From Gemmatimonadota bacterium (lineage in GTDB: Bacteria > Gemmatimonadota > Gemmatimonadetes > Longimicrobiales > Gaopeijiaceae), in assembly GCA_015664885.1 (NCBI GenBank), contig DQPL01000010.1, positions 1 through 63,424 on the forward strand: 63,424 nucleotides of DNA. The letters run 5' to 3'. The notes below the pieces were generated by a model. The model was not told where the DNA came from. It saw nothing but the letters and a program-made list of their open reading frames with translations, and searched no databases. Both the position numbers and the translations under genes were made by a program. Numbering within the stretch: position 1 is the first letter of the stretch; each line of letters opens with the position of its first letter. Below are positions 29,194 to 37,719 of the stretch, one piece after another.

Positions 29194-30672
29194 ATGAGTC
29201 ACCATTGTCATGCATGTCACAAGCACGAGAGGACGTTCTGGTCCCGTCGTGACTTTCTCATGCAGTCCGGTGGCGGCATTGCCGGTCTGGCCCTTGCGCA
29301 CCTGCTCGACCGTGAAGGGCTGTTGGCAGCCGAGCCGCAGTCGTGTAATGAGCCGTTCCCGGGTGCTCTCGGGCCGCGGCCACCGCATTTCCAGCCGCGC
29401 GCCACTGCGGTCATCTCGCTCTTCATGAGCGGAGGCGTCAGCCACGTCGACACCTTCGACCCCAAGCCGGCGCTCACGCGGTACGCCGGAGAGCCTCTGC
29501 ACGGGAAGGTGGACGGAAACATCGCCGTGCGTCAGGGTTTGCCGGGTCCGTTGATGCCGAGCCCGTTTTCCTTCCAGAGATACGGGGAGAGCGGCATCGA
29601 GGTCTCCGAGCTCTTCCCGAATCTGGCGCAGCACGTCGACGAGATGGCCTTCATGCGCTCGGTCTTCGGGCGCTCGAATGACCACATCCAGGCAACCTAC
29701 GAGATGCAGTCGGGCCAGATCCGCATGGGCTTCCCGAGCGTGGGTTCGTGGGTGACCTACGGTCTCGGAGCGCAGAGCTCCAGCTTGCCGGCGTTCGTGG
29801 TGATGACCGACCACAGAGGTGGACCGCTTGGCGGCCCCAACGACTGGAGCGCTGGTTTCATGCCCGCGACCTACCAGGGCACACGATTCCGCTCTTCGGG
29901 CGACCCCATCGTCGACCTGGAGCCGCCCGAGGGCATGACTGCAGAAGCGCAGCGCGCTCGGCTGGACGTACTGGCGAAGCTCAACGAGAAGGACATGGAG
30001 AAGTATCCCGGCAACTCGGAGTTCGCGGCGCGCATCTCGTCCTACGAGCTCGCGTACCGGATGCAGGGTTGTGCTCCGGAGGCGATCGACACGTCGTCAG
30101 AGTCCCAGCTGACCCAGAGGCTCTACGGTCTCGACAACGAAATCACGGAGCCGTTCGGCCGGCAATGCTTGATGGCGCGCCGGTTGATCGAGAGAGGCGT
30201 CCGCTTCGTGCAGCTTTTCCATGGCGGCGCGGGCAATCAGAATACCGACACGTGGGACGCGCACAGCGACCTCGTGGAGAACCATTCGCTGCACGCTAAG
30301 GAGTCCGATCTTCCCATCGCCGGACTCTTGACGGATCTGAAAGCGCGCGGCCTCCTGGACTCGACGCTCATCGTGTGGCACGGGGAATTCGGACGCATGC
30401 CGATTTCGCAGAGGGGCGTGGGTCGCGACCACAACCCCGGCGCCATGACGGCGTGGATGGCCGGCGCCGGAATCCGTGGCGGGCAAGTGATCGGCTCGAC
30501 CGACGAGTTCGGGTACAAGGCGATGGAGCAGCCGATTTCCGCGCACGACTTGCACGCGACCATGCTGCACCTGCTCGGGATCGACCACGAGCGGCTTACG
30601 TACCGATTCAGTGGCCGCGACATGCGCCTCACTGATGTGGCCGGGACGCTGATTCCGCAGATCGTCGGCTGA
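29194..30672 (+). CDS. DUF1501 protein with Tat signal
   Basis: Protein of 492 aa. The Tat motif WSRRDFLMQSGGGIAGLALA is at residues 16-36. The body has features of the alkaline-phosphatase-like DUF1501 fold: ISLFMSGGVSHVDTFDPKP, MRSVFGRSNDHIQATYEMQSG, FHGGAGNQNTDTWDAHSDL and VWHGEFGRMPISQRGVGRDH. The His and Asp residues in these motifs are likely metal ligands. The first 15 residues contain CHACHKH, a CxxCH motif placed before the Tat motif. It is coupled to the PSD1 gene upstream. Export through Tat suggests a cofactor or metal is loaded before export. Confidence 0.9.
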   Translation: MSHHCHACHKHERTFWSRRDFLMQSGGGIAGLALAHLLDREGLLAAEPQSCNEPFPGALGPRPPHFQPRATAVISLFMSGGVSHVDTFDPKPALTRYAGEPLHGKVDGNIAVRQGLPGPLMPSPFSFQRYGESGIEVSELFPNLAQHVDEMAFMRSVFGRSNDHIQATYEMQSGQIRMGFPSVGSWVTYGLGAQSSSLPAFVVMTDHRGGPLGGPNDWSAGFMPATYQGTRFRSSGDPIVDLEPPEGMTAEAQRARLDVLAKLNEKDMEKYPGNSEFAARISSYELAYRMQGCAPEAIDTSSESQLTQRLYGLDNEITEPFGRQCLMARRLIERGVRFVQLFHGGAGNQNTDTWDAHSDLVENHSLHAKESDLPIAGLLTDLKARGLLDSTLIVWHGEFGRMPISQRGVGRDHNPGAMTAWMAGAGIRGGQVIGSTDEFGYKAMEQPISAHDLHATMLHLLGIDHERLTYRFSGRDMRLTDVAGTLIPQIVG

Positions 30673-33352: not shown

Positions 33353-34501
33353 ATGTCACTGACGCGTCGCGGCTTCGCTCGCACGGTCGGCCTGGGTACG
33401 GCCGGCGTTCTGTCCAGCTCGTTCATCATCGGCAGGGGTCGGGAGGCGGCAGCCTTCGAGCCGGAGTTGGCGGACGATCCGGACGACGACGGCATCATCC
33501 GCATCAGCTCGAATGAGAACGCACGAGGTCCTGGCCCGAAGGCCATGGCGGCACTCCACCAGACCATCACAACGAGGACGGGCCGCGGATACCCGCCGGA
33601 CCACACGAACGAACTGGTAGCCACGATCGCCGAGAAATACAGGGTCGAGGAGGCCAGCGTCGTTGTCGGTACGGGCTCGGGTGGGCTGCTCGAGGGCGCG
33701 GTCCGCGCGTTCTGTTCTGCGACCAAGCCGCTGGTTACGGCTGCGCCGACCTACGGCACGCCCGATCGCATGGCGAGACAGATCGGTGCACCAGTGAAGA
33801 TGGTTCCGGTCGATGGCTCGCTGGCATTGGATCTCGATGCCATGGCCGATGCCGCCTCTGGGGCGGGCATGGTGTTCTTCTGCAATCCGAACAATCCGAC
33901 TGGCACAGCACACTCGGCGAGCGCCGTGGAAGGCTTCGTGCGGCGGGTGATGCGTGACTCGCCCTCGACGAAGATCCTGATCGACGAGGCGTACATCGAC
34001 TACACCTTCGACCCGGACGTGAAGACCGCCTCCCTGCTGACGCAGGAGTTTCCGAGCGTGTTCATCACCCGGTCGTTTTCGAAGGCGCACGGCATGGCGG
34101 GTCTACGCGTCGGCTACGGGATCGGGCACGAAGAAACGCTCGATGCGATAACCACGGCCTGGAATCTCGGCAGCATGAACACCCTGTCCGCCGCTGCCGC
34201 GATTGCGTCGTTCAAGGATACGGGGCACATCGACGACGAGCGGCGAGAGAACGCACGGATTCGTGACTTCACGCTCTCCGCGTTCCGGGACTTGGGATTC
34301 TCTGCTGCTGACTCCCACACCAACCACATCTTCGTCGATCTCAAGCGACCGGCGAGTGAGTTTCGCGATGCGTGTCTGGAACAGAGCGTGCGCGTGGGCC
34401 GGGATTTCCCGCCCATGGAGCACACCCACTGTCGGATTTCACTCGGCACGATGGAGGAGATGGAGACTGCTGTCGGCGTGTTCCGCGGCGTCTTGAGCTG
34501 A
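33353..34501 (+). CDS. Tat-exported class I/II PLP aminotransferase, histidinol-phosphate-aminotransferase-like
   Basis: Protein of 382 aa. The N-terminus MSLTRRGFARTVGLGTAGVL is a twin-arginine signal. The body is a fold-type I aminotransferase: ISSNENARGPGP at the start, VVGTGSGGLLEGA, FFCNPNNPTGTAHS, ILIDEAYIDYTF, and the PLP lysine in TRSFSKAHGMAGLRVGYG. The C-terminal Arg is in HTHCRISLG. Sequence order is that of HisC-like enzymes, but the signal peptide places it outside the cytoplasm. It is probably cotranscribed with the VOC gene (4-nt overlap). The PLP enzyme at 35155 is its neighbour and is also exported. Confidence 0.88.
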   Translation: MSLTRRGFARTVGLGTAGVLSSSFIIGRGREAAAFEPELADDPDDDGIIRISSNENARGPGPKAMAALHQTITTRTGRGYPPDHTNELVATIAEKYRVEEASVVVGTGSGGLLEGAVRAFCSATKPLVTAAPTYGTPDRMARQIGAPVKMVPVDGSLALDLDAMADAASGAGMVFFCNPNNPTGTAHSASAVEGFVRRVMRDSPSTKILIDEAYIDYTFDPDVKTASLLTQEFPSVFITRSFSKAHGMAGLRVGYGIGHEETLDAITTAWNLGSMNTLSAAAAIASFKDTGHIDDERRENARIRDFTLSAFRDLGFSAADSHTNHIFVDLKRPASEFRDACLEQSVRVGRDFPPMEHTHCRISLGTMEEMETAVGVFRGVLS

Positions 34502-35049
34502 GGACGCCCTGCTCCCGTCGGTCCTTCATCAAGAAGGTGATCATCGCGGGACCGGTTGTCTCGGGAGCGGGCACTCTCGCTGGTGCGTCCGGGGGAGCGG
34601 CACAGCCGACCGGGGAGGCCGCGCCGCCGACTACTGCGGCGGCGCAGCAGGCCGGCGGCATAGGCGCACTCGACCACGTCGCGATCCCGATCCAGCGGGT
34701 CGAGCAGATGGTCGAGTTCTATCGGGCGTTGGGGTTCACCGTGAGCGAGGTCGGGCAGGGGATCTCCGTCCACTTTGGCGACCAGAAGATCAATTTCCAC
34801 GTTCCGGCGCGGTGGCAGAACGAGAGATTCACGCTGCGGGCGGCCGAAGCGATCCCGCCCTGCGGCGACTTCTGCTGGGTGTGGGAAGGCACGCAGGAGG
34901 CACTGCGAGCTGTTGTGCAGGCGGCCGGGGCGGAGATCGAAGCGGAGGGCGAGCGGCGCGGAGGGCGTGACGGCGGAAGCGCGATCGGTCAGAGCGTGTA
35001 TATCCGCGATCCCGACGGGAATCTGCTCGAATTCATCAGCTACCCGTAA
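34498..35049 (+). CDS. Tat-signal VOC (glyoxalase-fold) protein
   Basis: A single VOC domain at residues about 55-180: GALDHVAIPIQRVEQMVEFY, RALGFTVSEVGQGISVHFGD and YIRDPDGNLLEFISYP. The N-terminus is a Tat signal, CSRRSFIKKVIIAGPVVSGA. No ATG or GTG lies between the preceding stop and the RR motif. The simplest start is CTG at 34498, whose CTGA overlaps the upstream stop by 4 nt. A GTG at 34372 inside the previous gene is the alternative. His and Glu ligands for a metal are plausible (LDHVAI, NLLEF). Role unknown; metal-dependent lyase or dioxygenase are options. Confidence 0.75.
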   Translation: MRTPCSRRSFIKKVIIAGPVVSGAGTLAGASGGAAQPTGEAAPPTTAAAQQAGGIGALDHVAIPIQRVEQMVEFYRALGFTVSEVGQGISVHFGDQKINFHVPARWQNERFTLRAAEAIPPCGDFCWVWEGTQEALRAVVQAAGAEIEAEGERRGGRDGGSAIGQSVYIRDPDGNLLEFISYP

Positions 35050-35154
35050 CAGCGCTGGGCGGGAAGCCCGCCGTTGGGTGACGGCGTCGTTTCTATTGCT
35101 TGCATCTCTCCCCGGCGTGTCGGATGTTAAGTGGACTGACCCGCCATCAAGGAT

Positions 35155-36528
35155 ATGCGGATGTCTCATTCGAGTGACTGTACCCGCCGTGGACTCGATC
35201 GTAGAGCGTTCCTACGGAGCGCCGGAGGAACCGCCATCCTGGGCGCTGTCGGCGTCAAGCCCGCTCTTGCGGCCAACGTTGTCGACAGTAAGCCAGCCCT
35301 TGGACCTCAAGTCTTCGACTTCGATGAGATCTACGACCGCGTAGGAACCGACAGCACCAAGTGGGACGGTGCCATCGCGTCGTACGGGGAGGGGATCGAG
35401 GTCGGGATGGGTGTTGCCGACCTGGACTTTCGCGCGGCGCCGTGCATCACCCGAGCTCTCGCAGAGCGCTGTGAGCACCAGAACTGGGGATATCTGCGAC
35501 GGCCGGCAAAGTACGTCGATGCCGTGGTCGACTGGAACCAGAGACGTTACGGACTCGAGATCGATCCCGAGACGATCCAGTGGACGGCTGGCGTGCATCC
35601 CGCCATCATCGCGGGACTGCTCACCTTCGCCCCGCCGGGCACGAAGGTTCTGCTGACGACGCCCGCGTACAACGGCTTCTACAGCGACCTTCGTTTCACG
35701 AAGACTGTAGCCGAAGACTCCGAGATGAAGGTGGTCGATGGGCGGTATTCCATCGACTTCGAGGACTTCGAGACGCGTGCGGCCCGCGCCAACGTTTTCA
35801 TTCTTTGCAACCCGCAGAACCCTACCGGCAACTGCTGGTCACCGGAGGATCTCACACGTATGGGTGAGATCTGCCTCAAGCATCGTGTCATCGTCTTCGC
35901 CGACGAGATCCACTGCGACTTCGTCATGAATGGCCAGACATACACGCCGTTCGCCAGCCTCCCCAATCGCGACATCGTCGACAACAGCGTCACGTTTAAG
36001 GCCGCAAGCAAGACCTTCAGCCTGGCCGCGATCAAGGTCGCTTGGTATTTCTCGACCAACCCGGACCTTCTGGAGCGGATGAAGGCCAACACACGCACGG
36101 ACGTCACGACGCTGGGCATGGTGGCGAACCACGCGGGGCTCACCGAAGGCGAGGCATGGCTGGATCAGTGCCGCGCGTACATCGACGGCAATCATGACTT
36201 TGTGGAGTCCTACATCCGCGATCGCATACCGCTCTTGAAGTACAGGAAGGCGCAGGGCACCTACCTGGCCTGGCTCGACGTAAGCGCGGTCGTCGAGAGG
36301 GTCGGTGCGAAGCAGATGGCCGCTCACGAGAGCGAAGCCTCCGTCAGCCCGGTCACGCCCGAAAACGTCATGCAGCGCTGGTTTGCCGAGAATGCGCGAG
36401 TCTACCTCAATCCCGGATCGAGCTTCGGAACCGGGGGAGCGGGCCACATGCGCATGAACATCGGCACGCCCCGACGCATGCTAGAGCATGCGCTGGACAA
36501 CCTGGCTGCTGCGCTGGAGCGTGTCTAA
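35155..36528 (+). CDS. Tat-exported PatB/MalY-like PLP enzyme (C-S lyase / aminotransferase)
   Basis: Protein of 457 aa with a Tat motif in RRGLDRRAFLRSAGGTAIL. The body matches the PatB/MalY branch: GMGVADLDFRAAPCITRAL near residue 80, then NWGYLRRPAKYVDAVVDW, FILCNPQNPTGNCWSPEDL, VFADEIHCDFVMNG, and SVTFKAASKTFSLAAIKVAW with the PLP lysine in ASKTF. Such enzymes cleave cystathionine or cysteine conjugates, or act as aminotransferases. Export through Tat would carry the folded holoenzyme out. It lies about 105 bp after the VOC gene on the same strand; cotranscription is possible. Converges with the molybdoenzyme gene with a 12 bp gap. Confidence 0.87.
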   Translation: MRMSHSSDCTRRGLDRRAFLRSAGGTAILGAVGVKPALAANVVDSKPALGPQVFDFDEIYDRVGTDSTKWDGAIASYGEGIEVGMGVADLDFRAAPCITRALAERCEHQNWGYLRRPAKYVDAVVDWNQRRYGLEIDPETIQWTAGVHPAIIAGLLTFAPPGTKVLLTTPAYNGFYSDLRFTKTVAEDSEMKVVDGRYSIDFEDFETRAARANVFILCNPQNPTGNCWSPEDLTRMGEICLKHRVIVFADEIHCDFVMNGQTYTPFASLPNRDIVDNSVTFKAASKTFSLAAIKVAWYFSTNPDLLERMKANTRTDVTTLGMVANHAGLTEGEAWLDQCRAYIDGNHDFVESYIRDRIPLLKYRKAQGTYLAWLDVSAVVERVGAKQMAAHESEASVSPVTPENVMQRWFAENARVYLNPGSSFGTGGAGHMRMNIGTPRRMLEHALDNLAAALERV

Positions 36529-36540
36529 GGGCGTTCGCCT

Positions 36541-37719
36541 CTACGCTACCTCGATCGACCGGTAGAACAGCTCGTTGTTCTCCCAGCGAGTTCGTTTGAG
36601 GTCGAGGTGCTCGGGCTGAGTGCGTCCCGCGCTATCCGTAGCGCGTGACACCAGCGTGTGCTCTCCGGATGGCAGCGCCGGAATCTCGAGCGTGAACCAC
36701 GTCCAACTGGTGGGATCGTCCGGCCGCTCCAGCTCAGCCGAGCGCCAGGCGCCGTCGCCTACTTGCACCTCGACCCGATCCAACGGAGTGCCGTCGCTCC
36801 AGGCCACCCCATGGATCGTGAAGTTGCTGCCGCTCCGAGTCACGCGGGCGATGGCGGACTTGGGCCGCTGGCGTGTGACCGACGTCTCGATCCACTCGGT
36901 GCCGCCGTCCACCTCGCGCCCCATGAGCGTGACGTAATCCTTGGCCATGAAGCGGGTCATCAGACGGTCTGCGCTCAATTCGATCTTGTTCATCCACTTC
37001 ACCTGAGAGACCCCATACCATCCGGGCACGATCAGGCGCACGGGGAAGCCGTGCTCCAGAGTGAGAGGGTCGCCGTTCATCTCATACACGACGATCGGGT
37101 TGGTCTCTCTGATCGCCTGCATCGACATCGAGCGCGCGAAGTTCTGCTCGTACTCATTGCCGCGGATTTCCTCCGTGCCCGAATCCGCCGCCCAGAAGTG
37201 GACCTCCCTGGTGTCCTCTAGCGGGCCTGCTTCCTCAAGCAACGGTATGAGCTCGGTGCCCGTCCATTCGGCATTCCCCACCATGCCGTGGAAGATCCGG
37301 GACGAGTTTCCGCTGCACTCGAAGACCGTCGTGCGCTGCACCCGGGGGCGGGACTTGATTTGGTCGAGCGTAAGCGTCATGGGCCGTCGAACGAGTCCGG
37401 TCAACGCGAGCCGATACGTCGAGGCGTCCACCTCGGGGTAGCCGTAGTGCCCCACCTTGAAGAAGTCTTCGACCGGTGTCGTCCAAGACGAGAGGTTGCG
37501 CAGATCCTGTGCGACGCGGAGTCCTCCCCCAGCGCGGAGGCCGTCGAAGCTGTCTGGAACGTCGGTGAACGGGACGACCGCATCCTGTGAAAACCACGGC
37601 GCCGGCCACCCGGGCACGGGCGTTACCGCCAAGCCGACGGTCACGATGCCCATCTGACTCAGGGCCTTTCGGCGGGTCATGAATCCATCGTTCGTGGTCG
37701 ACGAGCGACGTTCTTTCAT
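36541..37719 (-). CDS. Tat-exported sulfite-oxidase-family molybdopterin enzyme
   Basis: Starting at MKERRSSTTNDGFMTRRKAL (ATG at 37717-37719; an internal MTRRKAL start at 37680 is also possible) the protein has 392 aa. The Tat motif TRRKALSQMG precedes the molybdopterin domain: YRLALTGLVRRPMTLTLDQI, then VFECSGNSSRIFHG with the molybdenum-ligand Cys, VHFWAADSGTEE and GFPVRLIVPGWYG. The C-terminal 110 residues form the immunoglobulin-like dimerisation domain (TRSGSNFTIHGVAWSDGTPL). There is no haem domain, so electrons must go to a separate cytochrome. Substrate may be sulfite, but not proven. Confidence 0.88.
   Translation of the reverse strand: MKERRSSTTNDGFMTRRKALSQMGIVTVGLAVTPVPGWPAPWFSQDAVVPFTDVPDSFDGLRAGGGLRVAQDLRNLSSWTTPVEDFFKVGHYGYPEVDASTYRLALTGLVRRPMTLTLDQIKSRPRVQRTTVFECSGNSSRIFHGMVGNAEWTGTELIPLLEEAGPLEDTREVHFWAADSGTEEIRGNEYEQNFARSMSMQAIRETNPIVVYEMNGDPLTLEHGFPVRLIVPGWYGVSQVKWMNKIELSADRLMTRFMAKDYVTLMGREVDGGTEWIETSVTRQRPKSAIARVTRSGSNFTIHGVAWSDGTPLDRVEVQVGDGAWRSAELERPDDPTSWTWFTLEIPALPSGEHTLVSRATDSAGRTQPEHLDLKRTRWENNELFYRSIEVA

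Follow-up and report, generated by a model that had tools for sequence, protein, structure and literature searches.

Two PLP enzymes and a VOC-superfamily protein with predicted Tat export signals in a Gemmatimonadota bacterium

Introduction

PLP enzymes generally reside in the cytoplasm. Two exceptions, PvdN and PtaA, are exported by Tat already folded with PLP and serve pyoverdine tailoring; pyoverdine-free species also carry PtaA, which may have a part in other periplasmic pathways (PMC6206403). Our literature search retrieved no Tat-exported C-S lyase of the PatB type in print. Here, we analysed a window of 63,424 nucleotides, which forms contig C14 of a draft genome of 3.96 Mb (G000) and in which an initial annotation had noted two PLP enzymes with Tat signals on either side of a Tat-signal VOC protein.

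Results

The three genes follow one another on the same strand in the order HisC/PtaA-like aminotransferase, VOC protein and PatB/MalY-type C-S lyase (Table 1), and profile matches, Tat motifs and catalytic residues confirmed the arrangement described by the initial annotation. The first product matched PF00155 at 152.9 bits, and its NCBIfam matches ranked PRK09105 (NF006580; 247.5 bits, cut-off 444) above PtaA (NF051461; 233.6 bits, missing the cut-off of 500 by a wide margin) and histidinol-phosphate aminotransferase (hisC, TIGR01141; 217.4 bits, cut-off 276.55), so that all three cut-offs were missed. Its residues K244, N181, D211, R252, R350 and R361 were invariant in the five aligned sequences, and we take K244 to be the Schiff-base lysine and the others to have their usual roles in the family. 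The VOC protein matched PF00903 at 35 bits and has STM3117 and GLOD5 as its nearest solved structures; H60, H101 and E178, invariant in 6/6 sequences, align with the His/His/Glu of both and presumably act as H-H-E metal ligands, as in the superfamily. The third product missed the TIGR04350 cut-off by 13 bits (327.3 vs 340), with residues 56-454 covering model positions 1-383 of 384, and aligned with the solved PatB structure 6qp3 (E=5.8e-75) as well as with 4dgt. In this protein K284, N220, D248, H251 and R431 were invariant in all 17 aligned sequences; K284 is presumably the Schiff-base lysine, and we assume for the set the PLP- or substrate-site roles known from the family. Compared with the sister genome G001, dN/dS was 0.145 for hisC, 0.137 for the VOC gene and 0.153 for patB, indicating purifying selection.

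Table 1 Features of the locus at window positions 33353-36528 and of its surroundings
Feature	Position	Strand	Details
DUF1501 protein	29194-30672	+	Tat-like motif SRRDFLMQSGGGIAGLALAHLL
HisC/PtaA-like fold-type-I PLP aminotransferase, Tat signal	33353..34501	+	RR codons 33365-33370; Schiff-base Lys codon 34082-34084
VOC-superfamily protein, Tat signal	34498..35049	+	RR codons 34516-34521; CTG start probable
PatB/MalY-type C-S lyase, Tat signal	35161..36528	+	RR codons 35200-35205; Schiff-base Lys codon 36010-36012
PatB-like gene, alternative in-frame ATG	35155	+	stop 36528
SoxC/SorA-like molybdenum oxidoreductase, Tat-like signal	36541..37719	-	PF00174 150.9 bits; convergent with patB

A CTG at 34498 is the probable start of the VOC gene and overlaps the stop codon of hisC (TGA at 34499-34501). 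The sole ATG, GTG or TTG upstream of the RR motif in this frame is a GTG at 34372, deep within hisC, and a start at GTG 34537 would cut off the RR motif. We consider the CTG the best start because the sister genome has a TTG at exactly this place and because dN/dS over the first 40 codons (36 aligned) is 0.20 between the window and G001. If this start is used, hisC and the VOC gene overlap by four bases, and the resulting CTGA (TTGA in the sister genome) might allow translational coupling of the two genes. The gap between the VOC gene and patB is 105 or 111 bases, depending on the choice of the patB ATG.

The SoxC/SorA-like gene beyond patB has an NCBIfam soxC match of 180 bits, below the cut-off. 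Its order is the same in G001, and it is absent beside HisC-PatB in G023, G279 and G306. We considered this sulfite-dehydrogenase-like neighbour as a partner and rejected it, as it does not adjoin HisC-PatB beyond the genus and only 2 of the 78 other Tat-PatB loci had a BLAST match nearby; it probably lies outside the module. The DUF1501 protein of Table 1, with its Tat-like motif, is part of the Tat-rich surroundings.

Each protein of the trio opens with a twin-arginine motif (TRRGFARTVGLGTAG, SRRSFIKKVIIAG and DRRAFLRSAGGTAILG) followed by a hydrophobic stretch. The RR pair was invariant in 17/17 PatB, 5/5 HisC and 6/6 VOC aligned sequences, the N-termini of which were otherwise variable. 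The initial annotation would have been refuted by a lack of Tat signals in homologues, and they are indeed conserved: a signal was found in 74 of 78 PatB relatives, the other four being two truncated gene models and two genes at contig ends, and in 27 of 30 HisC relatives, among whose three Tat-negative members L019 does show an RR motif that was missed by the pattern. The PatB relatives came from 80 loci with the gene called in 78, leaving out L129 and L140, which had no PatB call (likewise L080 and L081, corresponding stretches of two genomes); a custom gene caller was used, so that gene starts in relatives are approximate. A loose Tat pattern matched 200 of 1299 genes (targets included); we adopted a strict one, which occurred in 28 of 1150 non-target genes around the related loci, and at this background rate three Tat patterns in a row exceed chance. 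Alignments with the solved relatives begin only at residue 41 for HisC and residue 52 for PatB, and the signal is therefore an added N-terminus. It is highly improbable that the RR stretches are non-functional and the enzymes cytoplasmic, given the low background rate and the invariance of RR within an otherwise variable N-terminal extension that the solved homologues lack. Taken together, by motif, hydrophobic stretch and conservation, on which our Tat calls are based, the trio proteins are well supported as predicted Tat substrates. The genome also encodes TatC, and with the PvdN/PtaA precedent the extracytoplasmic location proposed for the PLP enzymes by the initial annotation is likewise well supported as predicted export.

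We then compared the distribution of the three genes in a class sample of 394 genomes; the window's family has 121 genomes. The VOC protein was found in 10 class genomes and Tat-PatB in 79, 61 of these in the window's family, whereas the window's HisC clade was confined to seven genomes, all in the same family. This count leaves out G096, which a FastTree tree places outside the clade and whose high score was due to its presence in the query. The complete adjacent trio is present only in G000 and G001, which belong to the same genus, so that the expectation of finding the full trio elsewhere did not hold beyond one congeneric genome; what stood was HisC-PatB adjacency, which extends to three other genera in other orientations. 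HisC adjoins Tat-PatB in five of the seven clade genomes in three orientations: in tandem with the VOC gene between them (G000, G001), divergent (G023, G279) and convergent (G306). In G032 HisC adjoins the VOC gene with PatB on another contig, and in G302 all three lie apart. HisC thus adjoins PatB or VOC in 6/7 genomes, and the remaining flanking genes differ. VOC was present in 6/7 HisC genomes vs 10/121 in the family (hypergeometric 4e-7) and PatB in 7/7 vs 61/121 (0.007), both values ignoring relatedness and assuming that the sample held all 121 family genomes. These co-occurrence and adjacency counts imply that HisC is the hub of the linkage.

The same counts bear on the alternative that independent exported PLP enzymes simply lie side by side, in a lineage that exports many of them via Tat, and that the three genes serve separate pathways. 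PatB is common without HisC (54 of the 61 family genomes with Tat-PatB have no HisC of the window type), and VOC adjoins HisC in only three genomes, whereas most of the genomes with a VOC gene have it away from the other two. Moreover, of the 30 fold-type-I PLP proteins checked in the window's genome, at least 7 are Tat-tagged: besides the window's HisC and PatB, these are a paralogue of HisC on C86 and class V proteins on C93, C26 and C8 (two). The check covered 15 of the 24 PF00266 members. However, mere proximity does not readily account for HisC-PatB adjacency in 5/7 genomes with otherwise different neighbours, nor for HisC-VOC co-occurrence in 6/7, and we regard this alternative as doubtful, though a serious one. 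A further class V PLP gene of this genome (L250, G000:C16:37434-38327) has one in-frame TGA, perhaps reflecting a pseudogene or an assembly error.

Tat-PatB is spread across Gemmatimonadota and Acidobacteriota. Most of the named relatives of the window's genome are Gemmatimonadota MAGs; others are Acidobacteriota or MAGs that carry different labels. In the 78 Tat-PatB loci, which are not independent because many are close relatives, the neighbours included a TPR protein (26), a class V PLP enzyme (12) and a DcuC-family transporter (11). The TPR-repeat protein lies directly or one gene downstream of Tat-PatB (e.g. L075:6755-8344). The class V enzyme is Tat-tagged in 11 of its 12 occurrences, and its best NCBIfam match is PvdN (NF051467), at 164 bits against a cut-off of 650. 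Tat-tagged PvdN-like enzymes of this class were seen beside or near Tat-PatB in L107-L112, L114-L116, L124, L171, L071 and L072, and a similar protein is encoded in the window's genome at C8:90916-91941.

These PvdN-like neighbours, together with the PtaA match of the HisC-like protein at 233.6 bits, would favour a role in modifying a secreted peptide or siderophore, in the way that PtaA and PvdN tailor pyoverdine. Yet PF00668 (NRPS condensation) was absent from the window's genome and from the six further family genomes with the HisC clade, and turned up in G096 alone, a genome outside the clade. The lack of NRPS condensation domains in all seven genomes speaks against siderophore tailoring, a result that bears on NRPS products rather than on ribosomal or other peptides, and we rejected this reading as unlikely; tailoring in the wider sense is also improbable.

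Among more distant Tat-HisC relatives, those in L229, L230, L234 and L235 share a conserved neighbourhood comprising an SSF transporter, an Nramp-family protein, a Cys/Met-metabolism PLP enzyme, an AsnC-type regulator and a DAO-family oxidase (assigned by Pfam in L229 and by resemblance in the other loci). Other relatives (L233, L236 and L238) have DAHP synthase, chorismate mutase, prephenate dehydrogenase and a threonine-aldolase-like protein in their vicinity, identified by Pfam in L233 and by resemblance in L236 and L238. The aromatic neighbours of this second group raise the alternative of an extracytoplasmic aromatic amino-acid step, in which the HisC-like protein would be a phenylpyruvate or prephenate transaminase of a 'hidden overflow' route. 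The solved relative 4r2n indeed carries the label putative phenylalanine aminotransferase, and the export of an aromatic aminotransferase has been proposed for P. aeruginosa (PMC10520331). However, no aromatic pathway gene was recognised beside HisC of the window clade, and such a route would leave the PatB partner without a role, which makes this alternative very unlikely.

Discussion

Our analysis favours, with a probability of about 0.5, an extracytoplasmic C-S lyase and transaminase, exported by Tat as holoenzymes and acting on cysteine-S-conjugates or other amino compounds, with a small VOC metalloprotein beside them. The PatB-like and HisC-like enzymes would fold and bind PLP in the cytoplasm and then be exported whole by Tat, as PvdN and PtaA are. 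In the periplasm, the PatB-type enzyme would split a cysteine-S-conjugate (thioether), releasing a thiol, ammonia and pyruvate. The PtaA-like enzyme would transaminate that compound or a related one at its free alpha-amino group, with pyruvate as a possible acceptor, and the VOC protein might be a metal-dependent accessory that acts on a product. The initial annotation's suggestion that VOC handles the keto product is speculative, as VOC adjoins HisC in only three genomes, although the two co-occur in 6/7. Against the reading as a whole count the restriction of the full trio to one genus, the many family genomes with Tat-PatB but no HisC of this type, the mostly separate VOC genes and the missed TIGR04350 and PtaA cut-offs. 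Amino acids or thioethers are plausible substrates by analogy with the PatB family. Rather than tailoring a siderophore, the set probably serves to scavenge or detoxify extracellular amino compounds. A function of PatB in methionine biosynthesis was rejected, as the genome has two Cys/Met-metabolism enzymes without Tat signals, which cover cytosolic needs and which, like the PvdN-like Tat enzymes beside Tat-PatB in other genomes, we counted in favour of an exported role.

Judged from its sequence, the bacterium appears to export three proteins, two PLP enzymes and a small metal-binding one, all of them bearing an export tag of their own. Export of such enzymes is unusual and points to uncharacterised amino-acid chemistry outside the cell membrane. 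More broadly, and only tentatively, Gemmatimonadota and related Acidobacteriota might possess a dedicated extracytoplasmic PLP metabolism, in which Tat-exported lyases and transaminases (PatB-, PtaA- and PvdN-like), loaded in the cytoplasm, would work on thioether and other amino acids and HisC-VOC-PatB would be one module. The locus offers a concrete test case for roles of PtaA beyond pyoverdine: a relative of PtaA is genetically linked here to a C-S lyase with a predicted export signal, and the genome encodes at least seven Tat-tagged PLP enzymes.

Like PtaA, the periplasmic transaminase A of pyoverdine tailoring, the window's HisC-like protein is a HisC-type fold-type-I aminotransferase with a Tat signal, and its match to the PRK09105 subfamily runs from residue 3, including the signal; unlike PtaA, it has a predicted exported C-S lyase as its linked partner, and its genome is without NRPS. 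PvdN is likewise a Tat-exported PLP enzyme, and a relative of it adjoins Tat-PatB in other genomes, but it belongs to the class V aminotransferase fold family and is not among the window's three genes. Exported chorismate mutase and cyclohexadienyl dehydratase provide a further parallel as amino-acid pathway enzymes beyond the cytoplasm, and differ from the window's pair in being non-PLP enzymes of another pathway (PMC10520331). The VOC protein shares an HFGDQKIN-like motif and the three H-H-E positions with GLOD5 and STM3117, and is set apart from them by its Tat signal, a conserved PPCGDFCWV stretch and its predicted extracytoplasmic setting. Finally, the PatB-like protein matches the PatB/MalY C-S lyases (cystathionine beta-lyase PatB, 6qp3, and cystalysin, 1c7n) over its full length with the catalytic residues kept, whereas it differs from them in its Tat signal and, compared with 6qp3 and 4dgt, in an insertion close to the C-terminal domain.
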